From the NCBI GenBank assembly GCA_031761875.1, contig CP134492.1, positions 1,736,001 to 1,800,000 on the forward strand: a DNA stretch of 64,000 nucleotides, written 5' to 3'. Origin of the DNA: Bacillaceae bacterium IKA-2. GTDB lineage: Bacteria > Bacillota > Bacilli > Bacillales > Anaerobacillaceae. Below are positions 37,424 through 57,439 of the stretch, piece by piece; within the stretch, counting starts at the first letter, position 1; every line of letters begins with the position of its first letter. Under the pieces are notes generated by a model that ran no database searches, was not told where the DNA came from, and saw only the letters and a program-made list of their open reading frames with translations. Made by a program: the position numbers and the translations under genes.

Positions 37424-37435
37424 ATGGAGGTTCTT

Positions 37436-37723
37436 ATGGAAGTGATTTGGATTGTTTTAGGTATAGTTGCTGTTTTAATTCTTACTTTAATTGGTGTTTT
37501 TGTAACGAAGTATCGTACTGTTGGTCCGGATGAGGCACTTATTGTAACAGGTAGTTATTTAGGTGGAAAAAACGTTAACGTTGATGAGACAGGTAATAGA
37601 ATAAAAATTATTCGTGGTGGCGGCACGTTCGTATTACCGGTGTTTCACCAAGCAGAAACATTAAGTTTGTTAACTAGTAAAATTGATGTTTCTACTCCAG
37701 AAGTATATACATTATCTATATAA
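37436..37723 (+). pseudogene. floT: Flotillin (FloT/YuaG) truncated by a mobile element
   Basis: Only the first 95 codons of a flotillin that is normally about 500 residues. The membrane hairpin (VIWIVLGIVAVLILTLIGVF) and start of the SPFH domain (KYRTVGPDEALIVTGSYLGG, then GGTFVLPVFHQAETLS) are present. Homology stops after STPEVYT at about 37714, then three foreign codons lead to TAA. The remaining SPFH and coiled-coil region is not found anywhere in the window. ATG 37436 is preferred over ATG 37424 because GGAGG lies 5 nt before it. Function is lost unless the protein fragment alone matters. Confidence 0.88.
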
Positions 37724-37741
37724 TATAGTCTATAAAACAGT

Positions 37742-37897
37742 TGTACATAATTATTTAGGAAGAAACCTTTATTTGTAAGGTTTCTTTTTATTTATAAGGA
37801 TATTAGTGGAAAAAATTATGTACATAAAACAATTGGAGATATTTATATAAAAATATATGATATCCACAAAAAAACTATGGTAATAAAAGTGTACATA
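37742..37897. repeat. Three TGTACATA repeats at the element's left end
   Basis: TGTACATA occurs at 37742-37749, 37819-37826 and 37890-37897, at spacings of 77 and 71 bp, in otherwise AT-rich leader DNA before the first recombinase gene. Positioning fits binding sites for the element's recombinases; this is inference. Confidence 0.5.
37761..37789 (+). terminator. Terminator just inside the element
   Basis: AGAAACCTT TATTTGT AAGGTTTCT followed by TTTTA. It would stop transcripts entering from the floT operon. Confidence 0.8.
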
Positions 37898-38004
37898 TAG
37901 TAAAATTATTATATACAATTAAAGTAATAGCGGAGAGTATTGCTGGTTTACATATATATCAATTGAAAAATGTTAAAGAGGTAGTTGGTGATATTAATTA
38001 GGAG

Positions 38005-39213
38005 GTGAAAGTTATAGAAGATTATAAAATTATTAAATTTAAAACTAATACTGTAAAGATAACAAAAGTAATTAGGCGCAATGAGGAAGTGCAAGAGTAT
38101 GTAGTGATTTTATTAGAAAATAAAAAGAACAAGAGGATTGTCATTCATCCTTTAACATCTTTTATATATGATAATTGGAGAAGGAAGGAGCACAACACAC
38201 AACTTGCAAGAGCTAAACATATTGTTGCTTTTTTAAATCATATATTCTTTGATTATTATGATATTTTGATGGTTGATAATTTAGAAGAATTACATATTAA
38301 ACATGCTATTCATTTTCTTGAAAAGAAAGTAAGTGATGGGTGCGTCAAGTCCACTATATATGCATATGATTCTACTATTATGCATTTTTATTATTATTTA
38401 ACAAAGAAAAAATTACTAAAAAATTATCAAATAGAAGATTTTAAATGGTCATATGACACAGCACGAAAAAAGAAGAATTTAGAATCAATGCTTATTCCTG
38501 AAATGGAATATGTACCAACTAATAGAAATGTTGGAGAGCAAAAGGCAAAGACTTTAGAACAAGAACATGTTCCGATTTTTATAATGACTGCGATTGATGT
38601 AGCCCCTAGAATAGCTCTAGGTATATACCTATCCATATTTGGTGGTTTGAGAGGTTCTGAAGTAATGTCAGTAAAGCGCTCAACAATTAAATCTATTGGG
38701 GTCCGAGGTGAACATGGATTGATTGTGAAATTGGCTACTGATAGATTAAATTCAAAAGGAAGTGGGAATAGAGTGAAGTCTCCCGGTATTCAACCGATTC
38801 AAGCTATTAAGTCATTATTGAGTGAGCTATATATATCTCATGATTTGAATTACCCGGCTCCTATTGACGGCTCTGACAGCCTATTTGTTAATAAACATGG
38901 GAAAACAATGCAATATCAAACTTATAACGAACTATTCAATAAGGTTAAAGAAAGCTTCATTCAGACATTAAAGAAGTCGCCAAATCCTGATGACAAGATA
39001 GCTGCATTGAATTATAAGTCGTTAAAATGGAGTACACATATTGGTAGAGGGACGTACTCAAATTCTATTGCTGAACAAGTTAACAGTATATTAGAAATAA
39101 TGAGGCTAAGAAGAGATAGGTCTCCAAACTCTTCTACGGGGTATCTAACCAATACAAAAAATTCTATAAAAATACTGAATGATTCAATGGAAGAATTACT
39201 TGAGGGGAAATAA
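38005..39213 (+). CDS. Tyrosine recombinase 1 of the element (Tn554 TnpA-like)
   Basis: A 402-residue tyrosine-recombinase-like protein. The N-terminal core-binding region (about 60-135) is followed by a catalytic domain with first arginine in FGGLRGSEVMS (about 211-221), then HIGRGTYSNS giving the HxxR, and a C-terminal tyrosine in TGYLTNT. The spacing is shorter than in classical integrases. It is the first of four closely packed genes whose ends touch or overlap, as in Tn554 tnpA-tnpB-tnpC. Start is unclear: GTG 38005 overlaps the AGGAGG, while ATA 38014 is at the ideal 8-nt spacing. Confidence 0.78.
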   Translation: MKVIEDYKIIKFKTNTVKITKVIRRNEEVQEYVVILLENKKNKRIVIHPLTSFIYDNWRRKEHNTQLARAKHIVAFLNHIFFDYYDILMVDNLEELHIKHAIHFLEKKVSDGCVKSTIYAYDSTIMHFYYYLTKKKLLKNYQIEDFKWSYDTARKKKNLESMLIPEMEYVPTNRNVGEQKAKTLEQEHVPIFIMTAIDVAPRIALGIYLSIFGGLRGSEVMSVKRSTIKSIGVRGEHGLIVKLATDRLNSKGSGNRVKSPGIQPIQAIKSLLSELYISHDLNYPAPIDGSDSLFVNKHGKTMQYQTYNELFNKVKESFIQTLKKSPNPDDKIAALNYKSLKWSTHIGRGTYSNSIAEQVNSILEIMRLRRDRSPNSSTGYLTNTKNSIKILNDSMEELLEGK

Positions 39214-39216
39214 CCT

Positions 39217-41712
39217 ATGACTATAAAGTTATCGATTGATGAATATGAAAGTATTAAAGACAAAGTAGTCTCTATTTCTGTCGCAGCCTCCATGCTAAAT
39301 TTAAAATGGCACACTTTGTATTCATATTTAAGAAAGACCGCGGGATTCCAAGTTTATGCGATGCCTTCCTCTACAGAAAAAAAGAATGAATTAGTTATAA
39401 CCTTAAATTCAATAAATAACTTTATTGAATTACAGGAAACACTTAAAAACTTCAGTACATTTAAAGAATTATTTGAAGCCTCAGGACGTAGTAAAACATT
39501 CTGGTTAAGATATATTGAGAGTGAATTGCCCCAAGGCATGTTAAGTACATTATTCGACAAAACTATTCGTGTTCCTAAAGATTTGGCAAATCAGTATTTA
39601 AACCGGCGAACTGTTAAGAGTGAACATATAACAACTAAGGGAATTATGGATTTATTCGGATTTAAAACTAAAGCACAAGTGAGGAGTTTATATAAGATTT
39701 TAGGAGCACGAACTGTAGTGGTGGATGATAATGGTCTTAATATTTCAGCTTACTCCAAAGAAATTGCACTTAAATTTTTAGGGGAACGTAATAATGAGGA
39801 AAAATTTTTAATGGAGAATAACTATATTGGTCTTCCGGACATCGTTAAAATGTTTCCTTATGAAAAATCAGAGGATTCAGTTAGAAACTTGCTTAGTAGT
39901 GGAGAAGTGGATGGTGTAATTGTTCGTCAATACGCCCTTGGAAAAGAATTGAAATACTATATAAAAAGAGAGGATATTGGAAGATATATAAAAGACAGAG
40001 TTAACTCTTACAGGCATCTGAATTTAAAAGACCCGGTTGAAATATTACTAGAAGGAATAAAAGAAATAAAAGTCGATTCGGATATTTCTTGGACAATGGG
40101 TTTCCTTAAAGATTTTTGTAAGACTAAATTGTTACGAAGTGATGCAACAGATAAAGCTAAAGTAGAGAAAGCTCGTGTTTTTGTTTTAAGGTACGAGTTT
40201 TTTTCAAACTTATTTGATAAGGAAGTTTATAAGTATACTGATAAAGAATTAGAGCGGTTACTTCTAACAGACAAACTAGGTCATCTTGATAAATCGGTTT
40301 TAGTGTCGTTTTTAAAAAGTGTCAAAAAAAATAGAGCCTGTAAGTTCCAAGAAACGTATAACTTACAAACCAAACCAAGAGCAGATGAAGAAATTGATAT
40401 ATATGAATTTAGTGAATTTCTTTCCTTGTATAAATATTGTAAAAGACTAGATATACATGTTCTGAGGGCTATTGAGAACCGAGATTATTCAGTAATGTGG
40501 TTATACGTTGCGACACATCTGGTAAATGCGTGGAGGCACCCAGATGTAATCATGTTACCTAAAATTAATGTTCATGATTTCGGTATTGATAGTTTCCAAG
40601 ATATTGTTGACGGTTTAAGTGAAATGCAAATCAATGGCATCCTGATGCGTATTGACAAGTCTAGAATGATAAATTTGATTGTGTCTAAAACTAAGCTACG
40701 TAGAACGTTTTTTAGTAATCCCTCTTTTAGACCTGCTTTAGCTACAGCTTACGCTATAGCAGATTTACATAGTGAGTACGAAAGGGATGACACGTTATTA
40801 AATTTCAAAACGAAATATAATGATGTATATGAACGTTTTCATCGTTTGTTTTTTCATCAACTTAAATTTAAGTTCAGGTCGAGAAAGATGAATGCTAGTT
40901 TAATGTCGCATTTATTCTACAGTATTAAAAATAAAAAAGGCACTAGCTACGATGCTTATCAATTTGGAACAAGGTTAAGAGGACATAAAACTAACCCCTT
41001 AAGACCAGATAAACAATTTTCAGAAATAACTAAATTATATATTTCGGAACAATACGATGATAAAAGCTTCGATACAACTGCGATGGAGCTTTTTGATAGA
41101 GGCGAATTCGGATATTTATACGCAATGTTACTAGAAGGTGCAAAAGACGAGAGTGGTAAACCTTTAACAATAACAAAAGAAACAGAATTAATTCGAAAGT
41201 TCCAGGTTAAGTACAAGCCTTTGTCGGTGGAGAGAATGGCTAAGTTCATCCAATCTCGACAAGCGAAAAAGGAAACAATAGCACAATCAATTCTTAAACT
41301 TGGAAACGAAAAAATATGCGATGTTATTCGTAAAATTTATCTAGGAGAAATGTCATCTAGAGAGGAAGATATAAGCTGTATTATAGCTCCAGAATGCTTT
41401 TATCCTCAAAGGAAGAACTGTATTGGTTGTGAATATTCAATGCCGAGAGGCAGTGAGAGTGTTATGCAATCTGTTAAGGATGAATTAGATGAAAGATTGC
41501 ACTCGCTTATTAATTCTACTAAATGGGCTACGGGTTTAAGGGACATGAGTACAATTAATGCTCTACTAGATAGGTTAAATGAAGCAAGAAATGAATTTGG
41601 GAAGAATTTCGTAAATGGAGTTATTGATTTAGAAGATTTAAAAATTAAATTAGAACTTGGGAGCGGGAGATTAGAGGCGTTGGAGAGGATAAAGCTAAAA
41701 AAAGAGGAGTGA
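39217..41712 (+). CDS. Large recombinase-like protein 2 of the element (TnpB-like)
   Basis: An 831-residue protein, second in the recombination module, starting 3 bp after the first recombinase. Most of its length is diverged. A weak tyrosine-recombinase-like C-terminal half is suggested by VNAWRHPDV (about 433-441) and NASLMSHLFYSI, and a cysteine cluster CFYPQRKNCIGCEYSMPRG (about 728-746) near the C-terminus matches those of Tn554 TnpB-type proteins. The N-terminal 300 residues contain repeated helix-turn-helix-like blocks (VVSISVAASMLNLKWHTLYS). Catalytic residues are not clear, so it may be an accessory end-binding protein. ATG follows GAGGGGAAA. Confidence 0.65.
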   Translation: MTIKLSIDEYESIKDKVVSISVAASMLNLKWHTLYSYLRKTAGFQVYAMPSSTEKKNELVITLNSINNFIELQETLKNFSTFKELFEASGRSKTFWLRYIESELPQGMLSTLFDKTIRVPKDLANQYLNRRTVKSEHITTKGIMDLFGFKTKAQVRSLYKILGARTVVVDDNGLNISAYSKEIALKFLGERNNEEKFLMENNYIGLPDIVKMFPYEKSEDSVRNLLSSGEVDGVIVRQYALGKELKYYIKREDIGRYIKDRVNSYRHLNLKDPVEILLEGIKEIKVDSDISWTMGFLKDFCKTKLLRSDATDKAKVEKARVFVLRYEFFSNLFDKEVYKYTDKELERLLLTDKLGHLDKSVLVSFLKSVKKNRACKFQETYNLQTKPRADEEIDIYEFSEFLSLYKYCKRLDIHVLRAIENRDYSVMWLYVATHLVNAWRHPDVIMLPKINVHDFGIDSFQDIVDGLSEMQINGILMRIDKSRMINLIVSKTKLRRTFFSNPSFRPALATAYAIADLHSEYERDDTLLNFKTKYNDVYERFHRLFFHQLKFKFRSRKMNASLMSHLFYSIKNKKGTSYDAYQFGTRLRGHKTNPLRPDKQFSEITKLYISEQYDDKSFDTTAMELFDRGEFGYLYAMLLEGAKDESGKPLTITKETELIRKFQVKYKPLSVERMAKFIQSRQAKKETIAQSILKLGNEKICDVIRKIYLGEMSSREEDISCIIAPECFYPQRKNCIGCEYSMPRGSESVMQSVKDELDERLHSLINSTKWATGLRDMSTINALLDRLNEARNEFGKNFVNGVIDLEDLKIKLELGSGRLEALERIKLKKEE

Positions 41713-43352
41713 TTGTTATTGGGATTGTAGTTAAAGAAACTTATCATGAAGGAAACGTCGGTGAATATTACACCTACAAAAATGTTAGTTATAACAAAGA
41801 AACTATCGAGGAGGCGAAACGGAAATTTGAGGCGCTCAAAGAAAAGGGTATAGTTAAAACAAATAGTTACTATGACGATGTTTGGAGTGTGACAAGGAAT
41901 TCTACAAAAGAGTCAGCTTTTTTAAAATTCGATATTGATATGTACCCAGATTTAAAAGAAGGTCTTAAGTGTTTCTCGATTTACGAGTTAAATAGAGTTA
42001 CGGGAGGTACCGTTCAAAGTAATCTCAACATTATAAAAAAATCTATATTGATTTCACAAGGCTTTGATTCAGAGATGGTAGAGGTTCTGGAAGAGTTTAT
42101 AACAGAAAGTGAAAATGAGGATTCCTACAAGCGAGCAAAAGCAATTATTAACTTTCTACAATTTTTAAACCACGATAATACAGAATTGTATCAAGAGTAT
42201 TTAGCGTTCTTTTCCCCGCCTAATCCTAATGTTAGAAAATTGATAAAGTTCAATGATTTATTACTGTTTGGTGCTTCGATTGAAAAATTTATACAAGACT
42301 GTTCCAAACTAGAGAGACTAAACTATTATCCAATTATACTGTGGTGGAAAATAACAAATATAATCCCCACAAGGGCTTCTGAATTCTATAACCTTAAATG
42401 GGATTGCCTCAGTACAGAAGGGGAACATACCATTTTAAGTATGACTAGACTGAAATTAAGAAATGGAGAAATTCCCAAAGTAAGTAAAATCCCGATAAGT
42501 GACTCAATTAAAAAGTTAATAGAAGAATACAAAAGAGATGTTGAAGGATTTGGAGAGACAACGAAATTATTATCCACACCGGCATACATTTTTGCAAATA
42601 AAAATTATTTAGGTGTAAATAACATAGAGGACTATAGCGCTGATTTTAAAAGTGGTAGGTTCTCGAGGTTATTAAATCAGTTTTACAACGATATAGTGAT
42701 TGATAAACAAGGAAACCCCTTTAATGTTCAAAGACTTAAACCAATGGATACAAGGCATTACGCTTTTATGAATATGCTACTTCAAGGATTTAACCCTCTT
42801 ACTATTGCGCGAATGGGAGGGCATAAAACACTAGTAGCGCAAACTCATTATCACCAGCACGTCGAAGAATTTGCCGACAGTTATGTTTACTCTTTAACTA
42901 AATTGAGGTCTATGAAAAACTATGATTTATCTCCTGTAGAATATGTAAATTCAACAAACTCAATTATGCAAAGGAGTATAATCCGTAGTCAGAATTTTAA
43001 TGAGTACTATCATGAAGTTGACCCATTTGGACACTGTACATATGATTTAGAAAGTTATGGTTGTCCATTTGGGGCGAATTGTAAAGAGTGTGACTTTTTT
43101 TATTTGTCTAAAGACGAAAGGGGAAATCCTGATGTAATTGATTGGCTGCAAGATAGCTCGACTTCATTGGCGAAGAACATTAGAGAGCAGATTGCTTTTA
43201 TGATTGAGGTATCTAAAAACGTGAAAGTTGATATGAGTCAATTAAGCTGGTTTGCTGATGTTGATGAGGAACTAAAGCGAACATCAAATAACCTATCTTC
43301 ACTAATCGTTAAAAAGTCTATAGTAGATAGTTTTTTGGAGGTTGAATTATGA
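41709..43352 (+). CDS. Tyrosine recombinase 3 of the element
   Basis: A 547-residue tyrosine recombinase. Catalytic motifs are well preserved: first arginine in IPTRASEFYNLKW (about residues 221-233), DTRHYAFMNMLLQGFNPL, GGHKTLVAQTHYHQH with the nucleophile tyrosine candidate. A cysteine cluster CTYDLESYGCPFGANCKECD (about 442-461) follows, as in Tn554-type proteins. It overlaps the previous gene by 4 bp. GTG 41709 overlaps the Shine-Dalgarno AGAGGAG; ATT 41718 is at the ideal 8-nt spacing, the same oddity as in the first gene. It is the best candidate for the catalytic recombinase. Confidence 0.82.
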   Translation: MIVIGIVVKETYHEGNVGEYYTYKNVSYNKETIEEAKRKFEALKEKGIVKTNSYYDDVWSVTRNSTKESAFLKFDIDMYPDLKEGLKCFSIYELNRVTGGTVQSNLNIIKKSILISQGFDSEMVEVLEEFITESENEDSYKRAKAIINFLQFLNHDNTELYQEYLAFFSPPNPNVRKLIKFNDLLLFGASIEKFIQDCSKLERLNYYPIILWWKITNIIPTRASEFYNLKWDCLSTEGEHTILSMTRLKLRNGEIPKVSKIPISDSIKKLIEEYKRDVEGFGETTKLLSTPAYIFANKNYLGVNNIEDYSADFKSGRFSRLLNQFYNDIVIDKQGNPFNVQRLKPMDTRHYAFMNMLLQGFNPLTIARMGGHKTLVAQTHYHQHVEEFADSYVYSLTKLRSMKNYDLSPVEYVNSTNSIMQRSIIRSQNFNEYYHEVDPFGHCTYDLESYGCPFGANCKECDFFYLSKDERGNPDVIDWLQDSSTSLAKNIREQIAFMIEVSKNVKVDMSQLSWFADVDEELKRTSNNLSSLIVKKSIVDSFLEVEL

Positions 43353-43972
43353 GCGCAGACACTAAACCTAAAAGTAAACGCGGGCGTTCGGAAAGTTACC
43401 CAATTGATAAGTTAGAAAAAGTATTGGAGAGTATTTTAAAAGTTATTCCTATCGCTGAGGTAAACCCAAACCGACTTGAGAAGGAAACTGGGATTGGAAG
43501 GCAAACGTGGAAAAGGAAGATGGGCGGCACTATTGAAGAACTAAAGAGTCGTACTCAAGTTAGTACAAACTCATCTAGAGATGATGAAAATTACGTTACT
43601 TTTCCTAATATCATTGAGACTGTAGAAACTTATTGGAATAATAAAAAGAAAATGGTAATTGCGCTTAGAGATTACGATAAGGTTATTCAAGATTTTTATA
43701 AAGACGCTAAAGCGAAATACGAAACAGAAAAGGAAAACAGAAGATTGAAATTGGAAATCCAAAAGTTACAACAAGAACTAAAGTTAGCTAAAAGTAACGA
43801 GGAACATTATAAAAAGCGATACTTAGAAACGTCTGTACAATCACAAAGCCCGACACAGAGAGCTGAAAAAGATTTAAAAGATATTTTGGATATAAATAAA
43901 AATCAAAGCAATAAATCTAAGGCGTTATCAAGGGATTTCATTAAAAATCATTCAAGTTTATTTGAAGAGTAA
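43349..43972 (+). CDS. Small helix-turn-helix/coiled-coil protein (TnpC-like)
   Basis: A 207-residue basic protein overlapping the previous stop (ATGA). It has a possible helix-turn-helix (NRLEKETGIGRQTWKRKMG, about 47-65) and a long coiled coil (NRRLKLEIQKLQQELKLAKS, about 131-150). By position, size and make-up it corresponds to Tn554 TnpC / DUF6262-type accessory proteins, which help orient integration. It closes the four-gene module, 98 bp before a terminator. Confidence 0.68.
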   Translation: MSADTKPKSKRGRSESYPIDKLEKVLESILKVIPIAEVNPNRLEKETGIGRQTWKRKMGGTIEELKSRTQVSTNSSRDDENYVTFPNIIETVETYWNNKKKMVIALRDYDKVIQDFYKDAKAKYETEKENRRLKLEIQKLQQELKLAKSNEEHYKKRYLETSVQSQSPTQRAEKDLKDILDINKNQSNKSKALSRDFIKNHSSLFEE

Positions 43973-44070
43973 AACAATAAGGAAAAGGTAGTGGATTACT
44001 ACGAAGGGGAAAGTTCATTTAATTAACGGGTTCAGTTTTTGGAGGGAAAACAGTAAATAACATATGTTTT

Positions 44071-44109
44071 GGTATACGAATTCGCACGACAATTCGTATA
44101 CCTCTTTTT
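44071..44109 (+). terminator. Terminator of the recombinase module
   Basis: GGTATACGAATT CGCACGAC AATTCGTATACC is a perfect 12-bp stem followed by TCTTTTTG. Confidence 0.88.
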
Positions 44110-44619
44110 GTTGACAAAACAGAATTTATCTATTTTAAACAATTAAACTAACTTAACAATGTTTAAACCATTTAACCCAAGTTTCGGCATGAGGGTGAAA
44201 TAATCCCGTTACAACGAGATTTGTCTTTTGAATTTGGTCACTATAAATGAACTAATTGTATTATTACAATTTTTAATTTTGAACATGTTGCTTTCCCATA
44301 TTAATTAACGATTATTTGAAGTTTGAAAACAAATAGTGTTAGTGTTGCAAAATACCGGTGCTTTTTCAATGTAAAAAAATTAGTAAAACAGGTCAGGTCA
44401 CTACATTTAATTCGGTTGTTAAAATTACGGATGACTTTTTAAAAAGCTCCTCCATAAGAGAACCAGTGAATATTTATGCGCTATGTTACGTCTTCATTAT
44501 TGATAAGATAAATGTTTTGACTATATTTTGAACGTTGCGTCACTCAAGTAAAATATGTTTATTATTGATTAGCATTTACTATTATATGGTAGAATTATAG
44601 CATTAAGTAAATGGGAGGT

Positions 44620-44880
44620 TTGATTATTAAAGAATTACTAAACAAAGCAAAGCAAAGTAAAGGTTTTACGATGTGTTACATAATACATTTTAAGGAGCAA
44701 TTGGAATAAAAAATAGAGGGTAATTCAGGTAACGTATCTAATGACTATTTTAAACGAGTATTTTTAAAAATTACAACTATTTTTGATGTAGTTGTAGAAG
44801 ACGAAACTCAGAAGTTAAACAAGGTACAAGGGATTTATATAACAGACCTTATCCATTTTTTAATTATTAATTCAATATAA
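44620..44880 (+). pseudogene. Small broken gene, one internal stop
   Basis: TTG 44620 lies a few bases after GGGAGG and opens an 86-codon frame interrupted by a single TAA at 44707-44709 (codon 30). The first part reads IIKELLNKAKQSKGFTM and the second GNSGNVSNDYFKRVFLKITT, both helix-rich. I cannot name the family; a small XRE-like regulator is possible. The continuation in the same frame on both sides of the stop argues for a recently inactivated gene. Confidence 0.4.
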
Positions 44881-45009
44881 ACGAATTGGAAATCACATCA
44901 GTGACATTATGCGATAAAATAGGATATTTAAGCTAAATGAATCATTAGTTAGGGAAAAATAGGATTGAGATATTAGATAAAACATTAAAATCTAGGAGGA
45001 AAAACAATA

Positions 45010-46803
45010 ATGAGTGCTTTACACCAACAAACAAATGTTAATATACAAGAAAAAGCAAACCTAATCTGGTCTGTTGCAGATGTCATCAGGGGAACTTTTA
45101 AGCCCCATGAATATGGCAAGGTTATATTACCGATGACAATTCTTAAAAGACTAAACGATACACTGCTCCCTACTAAAGATGCGGTACTAAAGAAATATGA
45201 AGAGGTTAAGTCATTTGAGGTTAAAGATGGTTTTCTTGAAATGGCTTCAGGCTATTCATTCTACAACATAAGCCCATTTACTTTTGAAAATCTTTTAAAC
45301 GAGCCAGACCACATTGAGTCCAACTTTAGAGCCTTCATTTCTGGCTTCTCAGATAATATTCAAGACATCATTAAGAACTTCAAGTTTGAGAATACTGTTT
45401 CCGACCTTGTTGGGGCTACTAAAGACGAAGATAAACTCTTCTATGTTATTCAGGAGTTTAACAAACCAAGTGCTTACATGGGAGCTGATAAAGTATCAAC
45501 AACTGATATGGGATATATTTTTGAAGAACTTGTAAGAAAATTTTCGGAGTCCTATAACGAAGAAGCAGGAGCACATTTTACAGCCCGTGACATCATCTAT
45601 ACAATGACAGATTTATTAGTTGCTGAAGAAGAACAAGCATTAATTGAAGAAGGTGTTGTTAAGACTTGTTACGATATGACCATGGGAACATCACAAATGC
45701 TAACCTGTTTAGCAGAAAGATTGGCAGAACTTGATGCTGATGCTGAAGTAGCAATGTTTGGTCAGGAATTCAATCCTGAGACATATGCGATTGCAAAGGC
45801 AGATTTGATTATTAGAGGTGGCAAGGCTGATAATATGCGTTTTGGAGACACCTTATCAAACGATAGATTTGAAGGATATACTTTCGATTATTTAATTTCT
45901 AATCCTCCATTTGGAGTCGATTGGAAGTCGCAAGAAAAAGCAGTTAAGAAAGAAAATAAACTTGGAAAAAATGGTAGATTTGGCGTTGGTCTTCCTAAGA
46001 TTAGTGACGGTCAAATGTTATTTACTTTGAATGGTATCAAAAAGCTTAAAGATACAGGAAAAATGGCAATCATTCATAATGGCTCTCCACTTTCCAGTGG
46101 AGATGCAGGTTCTGGTCCTTCTGAAATTCGCAGACACATCATCGAAAATGATTGGCTTGAAGCAATTATACAACTTCCAAATGACCTTTTTTACAATACT
46201 GGTATCCCAACATATGTTTGGCTAATTTCTAAAAACAAATCCTCTCGTAGAGCTGGCAAAATTCAGTTGATTGACGCATCGAACATGTATAAATCGAGAC
46301 GCAAATCAATTGGCAATAAACGTGTTGACTTATCGGATGCATGTCGAGATGCCATTATTAAAGCCTACGGAGAATTTGACAATAAGTTCTACGCTTATGA
46401 CAAGAAAAGTGTAGAGTCAAAAATATTCAGTAATGAAGACTTCGGGTTCCATAAAATCACGGTCGAGTCGCCTTTGAAAGATGAGGATGGCAAGGTAGTC
46501 TTAAAGAAAGGCAAACCTGCCACAGATACATCGCTTAGAGATACTGAAAGTGTTCCTCTTACAGAAGACGTACAAGAATACTTTAAACGTGAAGTTTTAC
46601 CATACAACCCTGAAGCTTGGATTGATGAAAGTAAAACGGTTGTAGGTTATGAAATTCCTTTTACCCGTCTTTTCTATAAGTATATCGCTCCTGAGAAATC
46701 AGAGGTTATTGCTGAAAGAATTAGTGCGATTGAATTAGAACTTGTGAAATCACTAAAATCACTGTGTATTTGTCAACTCAAAAGCGGTCCACGAATCAGT
46801 TGA
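45010..46803 (+). CDS. hsdM: Type I restriction-modification methylase subunit HsdM, 3' tip interrupted by IS21
   Basis: An N6-adenine DNA methyltransferase. The N-terminal HsdM helical domain (about 10-165) leads into the SAM-dependent core with motif I region YDMTMGTSQMLTCLAER and catalytic motif IV NPPFGVDW. Many relatives have DPTMGTSQM; the proline is methionine here. Native sequence ends at about 46764 (LVKSLKSL), then an IS21-family element supplies a foreign tail to the stop at 46803. The lost end is only FEKDGE (52663-52683), so rejoining gives 591 residues and the truncated protein has nearly all of it. Activity may survive. ATG follows AGGAGG. The insertion separates it from hsdS and hsdR, so those may be starved of transcript. 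Confidence 0.9.
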   Translation: MSALHQQTNVNIQEKANLIWSVADVIRGTFKPHEYGKVILPMTILKRLNDTLLPTKDAVLKKYEEVKSFEVKDGFLEMASGYSFYNISPFTFENLLNEPDHIESNFRAFISGFSDNIQDIIKNFKFENTVSDLVGATKDEDKLFYVIQEFNKPSAYMGADKVSTTDMGYIFEELVRKFSESYNEEAGAHFTARDIIYTMTDLLVAEEEQALIEEGVVKTCYDMTMGTSQMLTCLAERLAELDADAEVAMFGQEFNPETYAIAKADLIIRGGKADNMRFGDTLSNDRFEGYTFDYLISNPPFGVDWKSQEKAVKKENKLGKNGRFGVGLPKISDGQMLFTLNGIKKLKDTGKMAIIHNGSPLSSGDAGSGPSEIRRHIIENDWLEAIIQLPNDLFYNTGIPTYVWLISKNKSSRRAGKIQLIDASNMYKSRRKSIGNKRVDLSDACRDAIIKAYGEFDNKFYAYDKKSVESKIFSNEDFGFHKITVESPLKDEDGKVVLKKGKPATDTSLRDTESVPLTEDVQEYFKREVLPYNPEAWIDESKTVVGYEIPFTRLFYKYIAPEKSEVIAERISAIELELVKSLKSLCICQLKSGPRIS

Positions 46804-46815
46804 AAAAAGGTCCAC

Positions 46816-47562
46816 TTATTTAGTTGGTTTTAGCCATGACATTGTCTCTTCAAATCGGTGACTTACTTCTCGTGAAATATCTAAGATATGTGATTTGTGA
46901 GCAAGTCTATCTACAATTGCACCAGTAAGCATCGGGTCTTTAAAAATCTCTTCCCAGCGATCAAAAGCCAAGTTTGTTGTTATGATTATTGATCCTTTAT
47001 CGTTTCTATTTGATAATAAATTAAATAGTATTTCACAACCAATTTTGTCAAATGATACGTATCCCAGTTCATCTAAAACGACAAGACTGTACTTTTCAAA
47101 TTTGGTTTTATATTGCGATAGTTTGCTTTCACTCATTGCTTCTTTTAACTCTATTATTAAGTTAGGTACAGAGATAAACAATACACTTTTGCCTTCCAAA
47201 CACGCCTTAATACCAAGCCCAATACTATAATGTGATTTCCCGCAGCCAGGAGATCCTATTAAGATTATATTTTCTTTATTTTCAATGAACTGCAACGTTT
47301 CTAGTTCTTCGAATTTCGGTATAAATTTCTTATGGTACTTACTCTTGTCGAAGTCTTCTAAGTACTTGTTAAGAGGGAATTTAGCCCTTCTGAGTCTATG
47401 TTTTAAACCATTCTCAAGCCTTAGTTCTAATTCTCTTTCGAGTAGACGACTTATCAGCTCTCGGTGGGTCATGTTTGTATGGTTTGCTTCATCAAGAAGC
47501 ATTTGATAATTGGTTTTTATATAGGGTAATTTTAGTATATGGGCCATTTCTTGTATTTGCAT
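46816..47562 (-). CDS. istB: IS21-family helper ATPase IstB
   Basis: A 248-residue AAA+ ATPase with Walker A GSPGCGKSHYSIGLG (about 100-114) and Walker B-like SLVVLDELGYVSFD. IstB assembles on DNA and directs the IstA transposase to its target. It starts directly after the istA stop, the usual IS21 order. It appears intact, but its partner transposase is split, so this copy cannot move by itself. Confidence 0.93.
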   Translation of the reverse strand: MQIQEMAHILKLPYIKTNYQMLLDEANHTNMTHRELISRLLERELELRLENGLKHRLRRAKFPLNKYLEDFDKSKYHKKFIPKFEELETLQFIENKENIILIGSPGCGKSHYSIGLGIKACLEGKSVLFISVPNLIIELKEAMSESKLSQYKTKFEKYSLVVLDELGYVSFDKIGCEILFNLLSNRNDKGSIIITTNLAFDRWEEIFKDPMLTGAIVDRLAHKSHILDISREVSHRFEETMSWLKPTK

Positions 47563-48243
47563 TTATTCCACCTCCGAGAAACATAATTCGTTATATCTAG
47601 ATACTTGCCTTGTAGCGATGTTGCTAAGTGCAGTTTTATCTATGTGCATAGATGGAATAATATCGATATGAGATTTATTGTATGTTTCTAGAATCAATAG
47701 TATTTCTTCGATTGGTTTATCATCATTTTCTTGAATGATCTCTATGAATTTTTTCTTGTTTCTGCTAAAATTAGTATCATAGATGGCTTTTAACCTTGGT
47801 ATGCTTTTTAGAGCGTGGGAGTTCTTGATTGCACCTGGTTTTTTGTTTAATGAGTTTAAGTAATGTTTAATTTTAATACTTATCTCGTTAGTACCATCTA
47901 TTTTTTTGTGTTCACAAACGAGTATGTTGTTTGAATAAAAGCCTATTGTGTCGTAATATTTCTTGATTGTTATTAAGCGTCCTACAAGATACTCCGGTAC
48001 TGAATAGTGGTTGTTATCAACTCGTACAAAACTATATTTATTTGGTTTTTGCACTGTAACTGTTGCAAGATCAAGCTTTGGTTTTGTAGGTTGAAGATGT
48101 TTTATTTCTTCAGAAATAGTGCTGTCTTTATTGAGTTCTATCAATATAGTATTCAAGTATTCACGTGCATCATCGAATGTCTTAAACTTATAAGTTAACG
48201 CAAATGCTTTGTTCCTAATTATCTTCACGCTGCCCTCCACATG
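47563..48243 (-). pseudogene. istA: IS21 transposase IstA, 3' part
   Basis: The C-terminal 226 residues of IstA (HVEGSVKIIRNKAFAL, then a Mu-C-like beta-barrel region). It joins in frame with 51744-52568 if the RIT element and one copy of AGAAGGGT are removed, giving a 501-residue transposase (275 plus 226 residues). The break falls in the NEKGHVEGSV block, next to the expected catalytic glutamate region. Confidence 0.88.
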
Positions 48244-48277
48244 ACCCTTCTAATGCAAAGCTTTACATTAGAAGGGT
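48244..48277. repeat. 12-bp perfect hairpin at the RIT left junction
   Basis: ACCCTTCTAATG (48244-48255) and CATTAGAAGGGT (48266-48277) pair perfectly around a 10-nt loop. The outer arm includes the junction core and the inner arm begins the terminal inverted repeat. The other RIT end has no equivalent. Confidence 0.8.
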
Positions 48278-48314
48278 AATGAAAAGTATATGATAATGTA
48301 AAGTAAGGCTGTTA
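48270..48314 (+). repeat. RIT terminal inverted repeat, left copy
   Basis: 45 bp starting AGAAGGGTAATGAAAAGTAT and ending AAGTAAGGCTGTTA. Its reverse complement is found at 51707-51751 without mismatch. The run of TAAAGTAA motifs inside may be recombinase sites. Confidence 0.88.
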
Positions 48315-48378
48315 AATAACCGTAAGTAAAGGATCCCTCGCTGTTTTACTTTACATTATCTGCAACGCAAACACTATT

Positions 48379-49398
48379 TTATTTATCAAATCTTTTTAGC
48401 CATTCCAATAAATCTCCACTTTTTTGCCAAGAAGGTGCACCTTTTGGTACAACATCTGTATATGCTTTTTCAATTGCTTCTCTTTTTTGTTTTGAATCTA
48501 CCTTAGCGTAAATTTCAGTTGTTTGGACAGAACGGTGACCTAGTATATCACGGATGTATATGAGATTAACTCCTGCTTGGAGTAAGTGCATAGCTTTTGA
48601 ATGTCTCAGACAATGACAGCTAAATCGTTCTGGGATTAATATTTGATCTTTAATACGAGCCTTGCGTGCATATTTATCTAGTATGTAATTCACCCCTGCC
48701 CGGGTCAGTTTTTCTCCTCTTTTGTTACAGAACAATGGGTACATGTTTGCTGACAAACTTAACAGCCCCTGCTCATCCATATATCGATTTAATAAATCTA
48801 ACGGAGCATCCATCAGAGGGACTATCCGGGCTTTATTCCCCTTACCAATTAACTTTACAGTACATGGTCTGTCAAAACGTACTTGTGACGGAGTGAGGTC
48901 AATGATTTCCTGTACTCTTCCACCGCTTTCATACATAATTGACAAAAGAGCAAGATCTCTTCGTCCTATTTTAGTTGACTGATCAGGCATTTCCAAAAGT
49001 AGTCTGATCCCATTAAGCGTTAGGTAACTGATTGATTTTGTTTCTGTTTTCTTAACCCGGATTCCAAGGATTCTCTGCCATTCCAAAAGATTATCGGGGC
49101 TCTGATACTGGAGATATTGGAAGAAAGAGTGTAATGCCGCAAGGCGGACGTTCCTTGTGGCTGTACTACAGCCACGCTCTGTTTCTATCCAGTCAAGAAA
49201 GTGAATAACCATTTCCTTATTAATCATGCCCAGCGTCAGAGAATTTGTTTTTATTCCTTTTTTATCCTTGATAAATGTAAGGAAAAGTACAAATGTGTCT
49301 CTATAAGAGGCAATCGTATTTATACTGAACCCCATTTCTCCTGGCAGGTATTTTGTAAGAAATCCTGTCAGATAGCGAGAGAAATCAGTCGGCTTCAT
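48379..49398 (-). CDS. RIT tyrosine recombinase C
   Basis: A 339-residue phage-integrase-type tyrosine recombinase, the third and last of the trio. The active site reads HCLRHSKAMHLLQAG (HxxR), ILGHRSVQTTEIY with nucleophile tyrosine, and an upstream arginine in ESGGRVQEIIDL. SAM-like N-terminal domain about residues 1-90. ATG 49398 has GGAGG 8 nt upstream; the frame is open to 49428. It overlaps the preceding recombinase by 14 bp, so all three are translated together. Confidence 0.92.
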   Translation of the reverse strand: MKPTDFSRYLTGFLTKYLPGEMGFSINTIASYRDTFVLFLTFIKDKKGIKTNSLTLGMINKEMVIHFLDWIETERGCSTATRNVRLAALHSFFQYLQYQSPDNLLEWQRILGIRVKKTETKSISYLTLNGIRLLLEMPDQSTKIGRRDLALLSIMYESGGRVQEIIDLTPSQVRFDRPCTVKLIGKGNKARIVPLMDAPLDLLNRYMDEQGLLSLSANMYPLFCNKRGEKLTRAGVNYILDKYARKARIKDQILIPERFSCHCLRHSKAMHLLQAGVNLIYIRDILGHRSVQTTEIYAKVDSKQKREAIEKAYTDVVPKGAPSWQKSGDLLEWLKRFDK

Positions 49399-50359
49399 AA
49401 TGGTCAACCTCCGGAAATACATAGGCACAAACGTTATCTACTTCTCTAATTAAATCAGGGTACATGTCAGATGTTAGCCTTACATACTTATCTGTAGCCT
49501 CTAATGACTGATGCCCAAGATATTTTGATAATATTGGGAGTGAGTAGTATAAATCTAGCCCAGCTTCTGACATTTTCACAAGAGAGTGTACACTGAAAGT
49601 GTGACGAAAGTCATGCATTCTTGGGCCAAAACCCTTCCCACCATGTGGAATTCCTGCATTCCAGAGTATTTTTCTGAACCATTCATATATTGCCTTGGCA
49701 TTACATTTTTGCCCATTGTTCTTGATAAAAAAATAACCTTTCGGTTCATATTTGCCGGGACGAACATTCCTATATTGAATACACACCTCAGTTAGTGTTT
49801 CAGATAATGGGAGTATTCGGTCTTTGCCGTTTTTCGTTTCCCTGACAATAATATTTTTTGCATCAAGATCAACATCCTTACATGTTAGGGATAACGCTTC
49901 GCTGATACGGATGCCACAGCCATATAGCATTCTAAATAAAGCGGGGAGTACATACACAGTTGTTTCAAATCGTCTATTAACTTTAAGCGTATCACATGCA
50001 TCGAAGAATGCATTCACTTCCTTTTTCGAGAAAATATGTGGTACAAACGTACTGCTGTACTTTTTAGGCAATCTCGGTATATGTGATGGATATCCCATAT
50101 CATTTAAATAGGCGGAAAATTTTGCAATATAATGAATCCTCGCATAACGTGTCTTGTCTGATTCATTTGGACGCTTCTCACTCCATTTATCAACAATCTC
50201 CTTTGATAGACCGAGTTTTAATACGGCATTATCTATTGTAAATCTGTCAAATAACGAAAGTGTGTAAGTGGCATCAACAAACTTGTAACCGAGGTTTCTT
50301 TTGAAATCAATGTACTGTTCGATTAAACCAGCATAAATACCACAATAGTTCGGCATCAT
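49385..50359 (-). CDS. RIT tyrosine recombinase B
   Basis: A 324-residue tyrosine recombinase with the first arginine in LYGCGIRISEALSL, HxxR in MHDFRHTFSVHSL, and YLGHQSLEATDKYVRL with the tyrosine. The start ATG 50359 overlaps the stop of recombinase A (ATGA), behind AAGGAGGTGG. It has all catalytic residues. In RIT elements the middle protein works with the other two. Confidence 0.92.
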   Translation of the reverse strand: MMPNYCGIYAGLIEQYIDFKRNLGYKFVDATYTLSLFDRFTIDNAVLKLGLSKEIVDKWSEKRPNESDKTRYARIHYIAKFSAYLNDMGYPSHIPRLPKKYSSTFVPHIFSKKEVNAFFDACDTLKVNRRFETTVYVLPALFRMLYGCGIRISEALSLTCKDVDLDAKNIIVRETKNGKDRILPLSETLTEVCIQYRNVRPGKYEPKGYFFIKNNGQKCNAKAIYEWFRKILWNAGIPHGGKGFGPRMHDFRHTFSVHSLVKMSEAGLDLYYSLPILSKYLGHQSLEATDKYVRLTSDMYPDLIREVDNVCAYVFPEVDHYEAD

Positions 50360-51603
50360 TCCACCTCCTTGGCATAAAATGGCGTTTTTAAGAGTGGAAC
50401 ATCTAATGCGCATTGGCTCAAAGATGTTAAGTCTATTCGTAAATAAGTTTTTGTGCTTTCGGTATTCTTGTGACCTAGCACTTCTGATATAACATGGATG
50501 GGTATTTTTTGTTCCAGTAGTTGCCCAGCAAGACTGTGCCTCAAAGCATGAGGACCATGTTTCTTTTCTGTTATGTTTTTAATGCCAGCACGACGGAGAT
50601 AAAAAGTAACAATGCTATGCAAAGTCGATCTATTTAGGCAGTTATATGGCGGGATTGCATGTAGGAAGACATAAGGAAGATCAGATTTAGGCCGTCCATA
50701 CTTCAGATAATCGATAATAGCCTCTCCTATTTCTATTAAAAGTGGATGCTCAATCTTATTTTTAGTCTTTTGTTGAACAAGTGTAATTGTATTCTTTTCC
50801 CAGTGTATGTTTTCAAACTTCAACAGACAGATGTCAGAAGCCCTCAATCCCAATCGTGCAGCCAATAGTATCATAGCAGCATCACGCTTCCCTTTTGGGC
50901 TACTTCTGTCAACAGTATTGATTAATGATTCAACTTCATTTTTCGTATATGTCGTGGGTAGTTTACATTGCTTCTTGTAATTGTCTTTTGGAATTAGGTA
51001 TGAAAAGTCAATCCCTGTATACCCATTGTCATGTAGATATCTCATAAACCCACGTAAAGTGGTAAGCATGCTGTGGCGCGTTGCAGGTGTATAAAAACCA
51101 AGCTGATTCACAAATCCTAAAATGTGTTGTTTTTTAATTGCTTCGGTTTCCATGACTCCTTCTTCATTAAAAAAACTAAGAAAGCGATGAAGATTTAATC
51201 GGTAATGACCAAGCGTATTTTCTGTAATACCCAAAGATTTTCGGTGATTAAGGAAATCCACCATAGGATTACCGATGCAACCATAAAATTGGTAGGATTT
51301 CTTTGCCCTTCTGTATTGGAACGTTCCTGTAGACTGAAATTCAGTTAGAACATCCACACACCGGATTATGCTCTTTTCCCAATGGCTAAATTCCTCGTAT
51401 TTCCCAGTACCAATAAAGTCAGCTATAAATGCTCCACCTACTGACGCTGAATAATACTCAATCTGATTGTTTTCCATAAAAGTAGCCAGTTTTTGCCACG
51501 CGGAACGATATTGGCTTATCCTTGATTCGGAATAGGACATATCCCGAAGGGATTTAACTACTTCTGAGGACAGTTGTTCAAATGTTTGATATTTTTGTTC
51601 CAT
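50356..51603 (-). CDS. RIT tyrosine recombinase A
   Basis: A 415-residue tyrosine recombinase and the first gene of the trio. Active-site blocks: ARLGLRASDICLLKFENI (arginine), HALRHSLAGQLLEQ (HxxR) and VLGHKNTESTKTYLRI (tyrosine). The N-terminal extension of about 110 residues precedes the core-binding domain. ATG 51603 is preferred because AGGAGG is 7-8 nt upstream; the ATG at 51609 abuts it. Confidence 0.92.
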   Translation of the reverse strand: MEQKYQTFEQLSSEVVKSLRDMSYSESRISQYRSAWQKLATFMENNQIEYYSASVGGAFIADFIGTGKYEEFSHWEKSIIRCVDVLTEFQSTGTFQYRRAKKSYQFYGCIGNPMVDFLNHRKSLGITENTLGHYRLNLHRFLSFFNEEGVMETEAIKKQHILGFVNQLGFYTPATRHSMLTTLRGFMRYLHDNGYTGIDFSYLIPKDNYKKQCKLPTTYTKNEVESLINTVDRSSPKGKRDAAMILLAARLGLRASDICLLKFENIHWEKNTITLVQQKTKNKIEHPLLIEIGEAIIDYLKYGRPKSDLPYVFLHAIPPYNCLNRSTLHSIVTFYLRRAGIKNITEKKHGPHALRHSLAGQLLEQKIPIHVISEVLGHKNTESTKTYLRIDLTSLSQCALDVPLLKTPFYAKEVE

Positions 51604-51706
51604 AATCATAACCTCCTATATTTAACGTAGGCGACCTCGCCTATATTAAATATAGCCATTGAAAATGTAAAGTAAAACAACTAGAATCACTTTGTTTATA
51701 GTTATC

Positions 51707-51751
51707 TAACAGCCTTACTTTACATTATCATATACTTTTCATTACCCTTCT
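51707..51751 (-). repeat. RIT terminal inverted repeat, right copy
   Basis: Reverse complement of 48270-48314 over 45 bp, ending in ACCCTTCT where istA sequence resumes. Confidence 0.88.
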
Positions 51752-52568
51752 CGTTTCCACTGAAACAATTAGTGACGTTGATATCGAATCCGTAGTAGAG
51801 TGACAATTTTAGCAAATTCTCATTGAGGACTTTTTCAGTTTTACCTATGAATTTTGATACTACATTTCTCATATTGTCGTACACAATCTCTGAATAAACG
51901 CCACCTAACATATCGAAGAAACGCACATGAGAATCCATAAAGACGTCTTGCTTTTGATTCTTATATAAATACGCCCATCTGAAATCAGCAGCTGGTGAAG
52001 ATAGTACAGCTAGATGATAGGTATTGATCTCCCCGTTTATTTCTAACTTCACTTCGCCAAAATCATATTCAAGTCTTTGCCCTAAATCATATGATTGTTT
52101 AATAAAGCATTCCTTAGGTTTGTTTCTTTTTTCTCTGATTTTATTTGTAATAGTTGTATATCCAATATCAAACTTTTCATTGACTAGCATTTGGTGAATT
52201 TGCAAATTAGTCAGCTGTTGTTTATGTCGACCTAACTCTTTACACTTTTCAGATTCACTCTCTAGGATTTCGTCTAATCTGGTATCGATTTCTGCTGTGT
52301 ACTTTCTTGGCTTTCTATTTTGAGCATTATACTTTGGTGCCTCGCATATTTTTTCTTGTACTTCTTGTACTTCTTTTTTATTAACGTCTAAGGCATTCAA
52401 CAGAGTATTGTTCTTCTGGTACTCATTCCAATAGATTGCGACTGTTTTCCGATTGATGTTTAAAAGCTTGGCAGCTTTTCTATTGGATACACCTTGCTGC
52501 TTTAGTTTTATTATTGCATGTTTGTCCATTATCTCAATCACTCCATCCCACCCCTTTACTGCCATCAT
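51744..52568 (-). pseudogene. istA: IS21 transposase IstA, 5' part
   Basis: The N-terminal 275 residues of IstA: helix-turn-helix (MDKHAIIKLKQQGVSNRKAA, then NINRKTVAIYW) and the RNase H-like core with first Asp in YDFGEVKLEI and second in VYDNMRNVV. The native frame ends at SGNEKG; the following NEKYMIM comes from the RIT element. The start may be 52568 or ATG 52529, the latter with GGAG upstream. It is inactive as it stands. Confidence 0.88.
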
Positions 52569-52684
52569 AACAGTAAGAGATTAGTGTTAAAGTACTGGAC
52601 CGTTTTTCAATTGATATTATTCTATTAATGGGCCACTTTTAGAGTATCATAAACAATCACTGTTTGAGAAAGATGGTGAGTAGT

Positions 52685-53952
52685 ATGAGAAAAATGAAAG
52701 ATAGTGGAATATCTTGGTTGGGAGAAATTCCGACTGATTGGGAAGCGGTTAAAATCAAGCATGCTTTAAAAGAAAGAAAAGAAAATAATAAGCCTCAAAA
52801 AACAGATAATATTCTTTCTTTGCTTAAAGATAGAGGTGTAATCCCATATCGTGAGAAAGGTGATATTGGAAATAAGTCAAAAGAAAATCTTGAAGATTAC
52901 AAACTTGCATATCCTGGTGATATCGTCTTAAATAGTATGAATGTTATTATTGGTTCTGTAGGTTTGTCAAAATATTTTGGTGCAGTAAGCCCAGTATACT
53001 ATATGTTAAAAAATAGATATTCCAAGGATTCAATTGAATATTTTAATTATGTTTTTCAAACTGAGGAGTTTCAAAAATCCTTAATTGGTTATGGAAATGG
53101 CATTCTTGCACATAGAATGAGAATTCAGATGCTAAAGCTAAATACAGTCATGATTCCTTATCCTTTACCAGAGTTACAAAAAGAAATCTCCACCTACCTC
53201 GACCAAAAAGTCGACTTCATCGACAACATCATCGAGAAAACAAAAGAGTCAATTAAAGAATACAAGAAGTACAAGCAGTCTCTTATCACAGAAACCGTAA
53301 CAAAAGGATTAAATCCCAATGTAAAGATGAAGGATTCTGGGATTGAGTGGATTGGAGAAGTGCCTGAGCATTGGGAAGCAAGGAAATTAAAATATGATTT
53401 TGAAATAGTAAAACGTATTGCTGGTGAGTTGGGTTACAATGTTTTGTCAATAACTCAGCAAGGTCTTAAGGTGAAAGATATTGTTTCAAATGATGGTCAA
53501 CAATCTTCAGACTACAGTAAATATCAACATGTATATTCTGGGGATTATGCTATGAACCTATGGATTTGTTAACAGGTTGGATTGATTTATCGGATTTTGA
53601 AGGTGTTACAAGTCCAGACTATCGAGTTTTTCGATTAAAAGTAAAAACAAATTATTCTAAAGAGTATTTTAAGAATGTTTTTCAAATTTGCTTTAGTAAC
53701 CGTATCTTTTATGGGTTGGGACAAGGGGTTTCAATTCTTGGTAGGTGGAGATTACAAACTGAACCATTTTTGAATTTTTCGCTTCCAATTCCTCCTAAAG
53801 ATGAACAAGAAGAAATCGTTGCTTTTATTAATTCTAAGACTTTAGAAATCAATCGACTTTTGAGTAGAAAGCAATCACTATTAGAACAAATCATAGCATT
53901 TAAGAAATCCCTTATCTACGAAGTAGTAACGGGTAAAAAAGAAATAAACTAA
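52685..53952 (+). pseudogene. hsdS: Type I specificity subunit HsdS, frameshifted
   Basis: The DNA-recognition subunit with two target recognition domains, each opening with the repeat KDSGISWLGEIP / KDSGIEWIGEVPEHWEA, and helical spacers (ELQKEISTYLDQKVDFID; DEQEEIVAFINSKTLEINR). The reading frame breaks at about 53556-53559: the first part ends GDYAMNLWIC and the next frame continues MDLLTGWIDLSDFEGVTSPD. One missing base would restore the usual MNHMDLLTGW. The site is not a homopolymer, so phase variation is unlikely. A truncated protein with the first recognition domain could still be made from 52685-53572. The original hsdM stop (52681-52683) ends 2 bp before its ATG. Confidence 0.85.
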
Positions 53953-53969
53953 AAGGAGGAAAACAAAAC

Positions 53970-56900: not shown

Positions 56901-57002
56901 CAGATGGATGCGTTTAAAAAGCTATTTGAAGATAAGGAGTTTTACAATACAATAATGCAAGAGATTGCTAAAGAAACATATAGAAGTTTTAGAAATTCTT
57001 AA
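53970..57002 (+). CDS. hsdR: Type I restriction endonuclease/translocase subunit HsdR
   Basis: A 1,010-residue motor-nuclease. N-terminal PD-(D/E)XK nuclease (about 120-190, with VISLNGIPIIAIELKNQ giving the E-x-K), SF2 helicase with Walker A HSAGSGKSN (about 312-320), DEAH box VIVDEAHSSQ (about 418-427), motif III FAFTATP and the C-terminal RecA fold with ILIVAEKYQTGFDEPLLH-like residues. It translocates DNA and cuts when unmethylated sites are met. TTG 53970 follows AAAAGGAGG, 17 bp after hsdS. The full length appears intact, although hsdS is frameshifted. Confidence 0.94.
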   Translation: MEYKEKRFEDDIESFLLAHGGYVKGNMSTYDAGHSIDLPKLVSFIKTTQENEWERYEKIYGEESEKKLLKRFNEEVNAHGLIHVLRNGINDRGVKLKVCFFKPESTLNPDLVRNYDNNILSLTRQFAYSTVNRNTIDMVISLNGIPIIAIELKNQITGQSVENAKKQFMYDRNPKEICFHFNKRFLVYFAVDLYEVAMTTLLKGKDTFFLPFNQGSGGAGCVGGAGNPQNPNGYNTSYLWEQVLAKDSLMNIIQRFLHLSVDRKKEIKDGREMVRKSEKIIFPRYHQLDVVTKLVDDVKKKGSGNNYLIQHSAGSGKSNSIGWVCYRLASLHDENNNSIFTSVIVVTDRKVLDSQLQDTISGFDHSYGLIETIGDGKSSKDLRDAINSGKKIIVTTLQKFPVIYEEIESNKGRRFAVIVDEAHSSQTGTSAQKLKTALADNEEALREFARIEGDEEEKYEDFEDKLVKELISHGKHKNLSFFAFTATPKEKTLEMFGNRHTDGTFHPFHIYSMKQAIDEDFIFDILKNYMTYSTCFKIAKSTPENPELPESEAKKAIKRYESLHQYNLQQKTAIMVEYFRDVTMKKIGGQAKGMVVTASRLHAVRYYKEFKKYIKHKGYTDLDVLIAFSGTVSDNGDDYTEPGLNRTKSGEKVSEKQLPEVFRGDEFNMLIVAEKYQTGFDEPLLHTMFVDKKLSGVKAVQTLSRLNRTAKGKVDTFIMDFVNEKEDILKAFKPYYKETVLDEEINVNLIYDTKTLVRSFRLFNDEDVEKFNKIYYKSGTQSTTDLGKITSLFTPILKSFTKLSEDDQFKFKKAVRNFVKWYSYIVQITRMFDKELQKEYNFMKYMDKVLPNSVFEKVNLEDKIKLEFYRLDKSFEGQIALDSPGEYVVIENPKKVDTGKGKDDKDELLEAIIEHINQRFNGVFTEGDKVIVETIYGKVLISNKKLARYAKKNNAEVFQESIFPDVFKSVAHECYSQQMDAFKKLFEDKEFYNTIMQEIAKETYRSFRNS

Positions 57003-57027
57003 TCTATCATTAAAGAAAAGAAGTGCT

Positions 57028-57070
57028 AAGACTATAAATTTAATTAACATTAAATTTATAGTCTTTTTTT
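57028..57070 (+). terminator. Terminator after hsdR
   Basis: AAGACTATAAATTTAA and TTAAATTTATAGTCTT form a perfect 16-bp stem with a 6-nt loop, followed by TTTTTG. Confidence 0.88.
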
Positions 57071-57126
57071 GTTTACAAATTATATAAGTTAGAGCGTTTC
57101 ATGATTATGTTTTTATAGATTAACTT

Positions 57127-57321: not shown

Positions 57322-57439
57322 AGTTTTTATTACTTATAGGAAAAGCAAAAACAGCTTGTACTTATTTGTTTAAATTAAAGAAGTAGATTAGTATATGGTA
57401 AAATTATACTGACTATTAAAAGGGAGAAGGTTTTGGGCA

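Follow-up and report, generated by a model that had tools for sequence, protein, structure and literature searches.

A 27-kb island with phage-defence genes in floT and a Bacillales family of four-gene recombination modules

Results

The element and its insertion in floT

The 64-kb stretch of DNA analysed here, hereafter the window, contains the larger part of a 27-kb, putatively mobile island that carries phage-defence genes, is inserted in floT and has a four-gene recombination module at its left end (Table 1). A first-pass annotation had delimited the module at 37715 and 43972 and had missed that it heads an island of 26.9 kb. The left end lies 3 bp earlier, at 37712, where TTATCTATATAA begins, and 43972 is the end of the fourth gene only, the element continuing to 64613 on the window scale. 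On the host contig, which at 4.42 Mb is the whole genome, this right end corresponds to 1800613; it was placed there, 613 bp past the window edge, since the 3' part of floT (L004 4615-5898) lies downstream of the window and begins at 1800614. The ends were mapped, as the first-pass annotation had proposed, against empty sites: floT is intact across the insertion point in four genomes from the same genus, giving an element of 26,902 bp. The 5' part of floT shares 81-82% DNA identity with the intact floT of the genus, and the ORF listed for it reads on through element DNA to 37723. The right end carries TTATATAGATAA (L004 4603-4614), a perfect 12-bp inverted copy of the left terminal repeat.

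Behind the left terminal repeat, the TGTACATA repeats described in the first-pass annotation are present with the spacing given there, 77 and 71 bp. The 64 kb hold five copies, three of them at the left end, and 2.2 would be expected per whole window.

Table 1. Features of the element and of its target gene within the window
Feature	Position	Strand	Evidence
floT 5' part (target gene), interrupted	37424..37711	+	Weak Band_7 match; DNA identity to intact floT
Integrative element, in-window part	37712..64000	+	floT halves and empty sites in same-genus genomes
Left terminal repeat C, TTATCTATATAA	37712..37723	+	Perfect inverted copy at right end
TGTACATA subterminal repeat 1 (TGYACA at +31 from end)	37742..37749	+	
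TGTACATA subterminal repeat 2 (+108)	37819..37826	+	
TGTACATA subterminal repeat 3 (+179)	37890..37897	+	
IntA-like tyrosine recombinase, 402 aa	38005-39213	+	Pfam below cut-off; conserved residues; profile matches
"Tfp-position" protein, 831 aa	39217-41712	+	AlphaFold2 model; PDB comparison; conservation; HTH_17 repeats in relatives
IntB-like large tyrosine recombinase, 547 aa	41709-43352	+	Pfam Phage_integrase E 7e-8; conservation
Srap-like accessory protein, 207 aa	43349-43972	+	AlphaFold2 model; weak profile match
hsdM (type I restriction), truncated at the 3' end by an IS21-like element	45010..46803	+	PADLOC MTase_I E 8e-225
hsdS, split	52664-53572 and 53560-53952	+	PADLOC Specificity_I
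hsdR	53970-57002	+	PADLOC REase_I
CBASS SAVED-2TM effector	57440-58558	+	Pfam SAVED E 3e-39
CBASS oligonucleotide cyclase	58533-59924	+	Pfam AGS_C E 6e-37; PADLOC cyclase E 2.8e-185

Proteins of the recombination module

The four ORFs lie on the same strand, are intact and are tightly packed, with 3-bp gaps or 4-bp overlaps, and the ORF list agrees exactly with the sizes, order and coordinates of the first-pass annotation. The first product, IntA, has R216, K258, H345, R348, D371 and Y380 kept in 62-63 of 63 relatives; it retains R, K, HxxR and Y, with Asp or Gly-Asp at the usual position of the second His. Since its match to Pfam Phage_integrase (E 2.3e-4) is under the Pfam cut-off, the recombinase call rests on these residues and on profile matches. 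A phage origin was considered and rejected, IntA being without a match in the phage collection. The third product, IntB, keeps R, K, R, H and Y (R222, K249, R349, H372 and Y381; R222 in 70 of 70 relatives), and the first-His position is mostly Gly or Asn. Behind its recombinase domain lies a Cys4 cluster, C443/C452/C458/C461, conserved in 67-70 of 70 relatives; searching PDB sequences with the profile of IntB gave no match. The motif register of IntA and IntB against other recombinases was obtained with hhalign and reading by eye.

By sequence, the window copy of the second product could not be matched clearly to any family. According to its AlphaFold2 model (pLDDT 78.6, 46 aligned sequences), it has a tyrosine-recombinase fold behind winged-HTH domains, being composed of N-terminal winged-HTH domains, the recombinase fold at residues 285-618, a Cys4 cluster and C-terminal helices. 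In the PDB comparison, residues 285-618 match XerA (Z 12.2, rmsd 13.0) and XerH 5JJV (Z 12.1, rmsd 5.6 over 273 residues), the first 260 residues are modelled as winged-HTH-like units, and residues 201-264 match MerR/BldC-type wHTH proteins. UFM1-complex chains, top-ranked by Foldseek for this model, were judged spurious (TM <0.1). Fold comparison alone shows no function, so the recombinase-like active site of this protein rests on conservation: R440 and K491 are found in 58 of 59 relatives, H590 and Y608 in all 59. In box II the His is mostly Lys and the Arg is present in 49 of 59 relatives; this Arg is Ala in the window copy, and nine relatives have Asn or Lys there. Arg, Lys and Tyr are thereby conserved in all three recombinase-fold proteins. 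The Cys4 cluster behind the recombinase domain (C721/C727/C735/C738) is conserved in 58 of 59 relatives; the Cys clusters that the first-pass annotation had pointed out in both large proteins are real. Relatives of the 831-aa protein have excisionase-type HTH_17 repeats, as many as ten; a repeat model of nine sequences (eight from family members and one typed generic example) finds none in the window copy.

The fourth product is modelled by AlphaFold2 (pLDDT 80.5) as an N-terminal three-helix HTH-like domain followed by a long coiled coil. Its PDB matches are weak and of TetR type (Z<5), and Pfam gives no DUF6262 match.

Cargo

Behind the module lie type I restriction genes and a CBASS pair (Table 1). 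An IS21-like element sits between hsdM and hsdS (istB 46816-47562; istA parts 47563-48240 and 51720-52568), and nested in istA is a RIT-like trio of tyrosine recombinases of 349, 342 and 417 aa (48270-51751, minus strand), flanked by 91-nt inverted repeats (86%). A 235-aa ORF beside the CBASS pair (60211-60918, minus strand) has no Pfam or PADLOC match. In a size-biased survey of 20 relatives, which took the longest ORF in the 7 kb behind gene 4, type I restriction subunits recur in L108, L095 and L116, together with AAA_15 proteins, two of them with TOPRIM (L125, L068), metal ATPases and host genes.

A family of four-gene modules in Bacillales

A search of genomes for the same four-gene set, which the first-pass annotation had suggested, found the full set in the same order at 61 of the 78 loci examined, a biased sample almost all titled Bacillales, in which 74 loci come from a scan of genome contigs with an IntB alignment, using a single peptide pattern, and the others are the window and three plasmid loci. 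Of the other 17 loci, many meet a contig end or are broken, or their fourth gene has diverged beyond the reach of the profile. A genome-contig scan with the 831-aa protein as single query found nothing, whereas the IntB alignment did find loci. Among whole genomes, the 831-aa protein matches 20 of 397 of the order (about 5%), and the IntB alignment matches 2 of the 398 genomes in the phylum sample, one being the host genome. Moreover, the modules of three pairs of loci (L077/L079, L062/L067 and L104/L106) share 99.5-99.8% identity between the left end and a point just beyond gene 4 but stand among unlike cargo and flanks, which is the trace expected of a mobile module. Thus, the four-gene module forms a coherent and widespread Bacillales family that is apparently undescribed; no description of the four-gene set in Firmicutes was found in the open-access literature searched.

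The left ends of mapped relatives, placed by eye from pairwise alignments, begin TTATC or TATC. Sixteen relatives with a placed left end have one to four TGYACA sites each, where about 0.1 per region would be expected, and the sites recur at about +16, +31, +95-113 (12/16) and +164-183 (11/16). These 16 were selected for a TTGYACA site near the left end, which makes the first site partly circular but does not affect the spacing of the others. The recurring TGYACA repeats exceed chance. No TGYACA sites are found at the left ends of the radC-inserted group, which begins TTATAGGTA.

Both ends could be mapped in two relatives: L070 measures 11,109 bp with GATGGC on either side, and L131 about 14.95 kb with GACAGT on the left and GATGGT on the right. 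The flanks of each join into one SNase-like nuclease frame, and the 6-bp rule rests on these two relatives. Applied to the floT junction, the rule gives TATACA as the left and TATTCT as the right spacer, followed by TCTCAAGG, where relatives read GAACAAGG. Neither junction has the floT codon GAA, in whose place TCT is found, and Glu occupies this position in 29 of 29 flotillins read; the window insertion therefore does not fit the 6-bp rule cleanly, leaving a 3-bp anomaly. An earlier excision scar and mismatch repair are our guesses at the change from GAA to TCT. An automatic paired-end search was discarded as uninformative, 28 of 60 shuffled controls having passed the threshold.

The insertion in floT, which the first-pass annotation had recognised, stands on the intact genes of the genus. 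That floT is a repeated target of such elements, which the first-pass annotation had put forward for testing, was rejected: no flotillin sequence occurs at the 77 related loci, flotillin genes in the sampled genomes of the order, the host genome excepted, read through the insertion site, and the relatives split other conserved genes. By Pfam matches of the flanking fragments, these are an ATP-dependent DNA ligase (L077, L082), a topoisomerase gene (L066, L128, L083), RtcB (L105), catalase (L069) and an ABC transporter (L093); from translation, radC is split at HNHPSG in L096, L103 and L108 only. Sister elements have target genes in common, namely those for DNA ligase, topoisomerase, SNase-like nuclease and radC. 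In L070 (12426) and L131 (12459), in which an SNase-like gene is split, a second SNase-like gene lies directly behind gene 4, resembling the bcp copy reported in SE-6283.

On Enterococcus faecalis LR961926 plasmid 2 (L013), the module lies about 2.4 kb from the streptogramin resistance genes vat(A) and vgb(A), and on Cytobacillus firmus plasmid p1 (L012) it adjoins a mercury resistance cluster, with IntA split by an IS21 element. The 5.1-kb Campylobacter jejuni pFORC_084_2 (NZ_CP029055, L011) carries IntA-like and 831-aa-type genes only, and this "plasmid" is probably a contaminant or a misassembly.

Discussion

Relation to Tn554 and other multi-recombinase elements

The modules described here are a real and coherent family of the multi-tyrosine-recombinase kind that stands between Tn554 and SEs. 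The first-pass annotation had called the module related to yet distinct from Tn554, and profile comparison agrees: hhalign gives 97.2% for IntA against TnpA and 96.0% for IntB against TnpB (blastp E 5e-8), with Tn554 profiles that pool the named Tn554 (L207) and Bacillales Tn554-like elements. Both systems have this recombinase pair and a Cys cluster behind the large recombinase, and a sister group of the four-gene family breaks radC at HNHPSG, Tn554 doing so close behind this motif. However, Tn554 has three genes, tnpA, tnpB and tnpC, whose products of 361, 630 and 125 residues were correctly given in the first-pass annotation, whereas here there are four, and the 831-aa gene has no Tn554 counterpart. 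TnpC has DUF6262, and the fourth protein here is only marginally TnpC-like (hhalign 7.1%). The targets also differ, floT here and radC for Tn554. In gene order, the nearest system is the SE and not Tn554, a point the first-pass annotation had missed.

RIT (recombinase in trio) elements likewise have three recombinase-fold proteins in a row, but they lack a fourth gene and HTH arrays, and the RIT-like trio nested in the island is separate from the module. Gamma-mobile-trio elements are mobile as well and combine recombinase genes with defence cargo; at E<=1, none of the four proteins matched the NCBIfam models of GmtY and GmtZ.

Alternative explanations

We consider it very probable that the island is a site-specific integrative element in which no transfer genes were recognised, and that it belongs to a Bacillales family with a four-gene recombination operon as its core. 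That it is simply an SE-type element is a possibility we hold to be doubtful. SEs such as SE-6283, SE-6945 and SE-Pda04Ya311 have been reported from Gammaproteobacteria only, and have the gene order intA-tfp-intB-srap, imperfect inverted terminal repeats of 13-19 bp with 6-bp spacers, and a strand-biased copy-out circularisation without an empty site (PMC10214605, PMC9345347). The identical order lies at one end of the elements examined here, whose C/C' inverted ends are 12-13 bp, whose 6-bp spacers, seen in L070 and L131, may differ between left and right as in SEs, and whose variable cargo includes a copy of the target gene in some members. With SE profiles built from five or six plasmid-borne SEs, hhalign gives 96.9% for IntA and, over 42 columns, 56.9% for Srap, whose reported HTH-like N-terminus and coiled coil may correspond to those modelled here. 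Moreover, SE Tfp has conserved Cys as well, and 5JJV, the structure that PMC10214605 names for it, is among the best folds for the 831-aa protein. Against this, genes 2 and 3 are unrecognisable by profile comparison, with hhalign values of 0.5% for the 831-aa protein and Tfp (E 0.11; profile of five plasmid-borne SEs) and 5.4% for the two IntB proteins, and IntB is nearer to Tn554 TnpB. The 831-aa family retains Arg, Lys, His and Tyr and carries HTH arrays, in contrast to SE Tfp, which reportedly has a recombinase fold without RHRY (PMC10214605), and the hosts here are Bacillales. In the IntA/IntB tree, each group forms a separate clade with full support, SE and Bacillales proteins apart, with weak support (79/85) for the deeper order of the Bacillales and SE/Tn554 groups. 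It is quite improbable, too, that the island is a Firmicutes GInt (ginABCD), even though GInts have been reported from Firmicutes, without detail, and cut 6 nt apart, some leaving an empty site on excision (PMC5385486). By description, the means by which GInts were compared, both are site-specific and place at one end of a large, variable cargo island, the left end here, a four-gene operon encoding three recombinase-fold proteins and a small fourth. However, the odd recombinase of GInts is the third product, GinC, which lacks the first catalytic Arg, and GinD resembles TnpC (PMC5385486); here the odd one is the second, the third keeps R222, and the fourth is hardly TnpC-like. L167, a TnpA-TnpB-TnpB-TnpC four-gene element found in the same bacterial order, is the stronger candidate for a GInt and possibly a Firmicutes GInt of this order.

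A different kind of explanation, conceivable but on balance doubtful, is that the island is an immobile fossil with a dead 831-aa recombinase, kept for its defence genes. The change of the box II Arg to Ala in the window copy would fit, as would the cut hsdM, the split hsdS and the altered codon at the right junction. However, all four frames are open, IntA and IntB retain their key residues and both ends are perfect repeats; moreover, nine relatives also depart from Arg at the Ala position.

Proposed mechanism and implications

Taking the island as an integrative element of the Bacillales family, we infer that it is mobile; putative likewise are the roles of the HTH array and of gene 4, and the choice between copy-out and excision. 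The recombinases would bind the inverted ends and the TGYACA sites, and the left and right ends would recombine across the 6-bp spacer to form a circle, which could then integrate at a conserved coding motif. By analogy with TnpC for Tn554, the HTH array and the Srap-like protein may organise or orient the complex. A bolder version, which we think unlikely, is that the family is an undescribed Bacillales class with three active recombinases, each minus one catalytic His, acting as one complex, in which the tandem array of up to ten excisionase-type winged-HTH units on one of them would read the subterminal sites or the target and a change of array would bring a change of site.

By gene order and anatomy, these results bring Bacillales into the range of SE-type four-gene islands, so far reported from Gammaproteobacteria alone, and link such islands to Tn554. 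With a match to the 831-aa protein in about 5% of the genomes sampled from the order, a vehicle for defence, metal and resistance genes may be hidden in annotations behind the labels "hypothetical protein" and "site-specific integrase", the link to antibiotic resistance resting on proximity in one E. faecalis plasmid. How multi-recombinase elements choose their targets can be tested by means of the HTH arrays and of the conserved coding motifs in which the elements insert.
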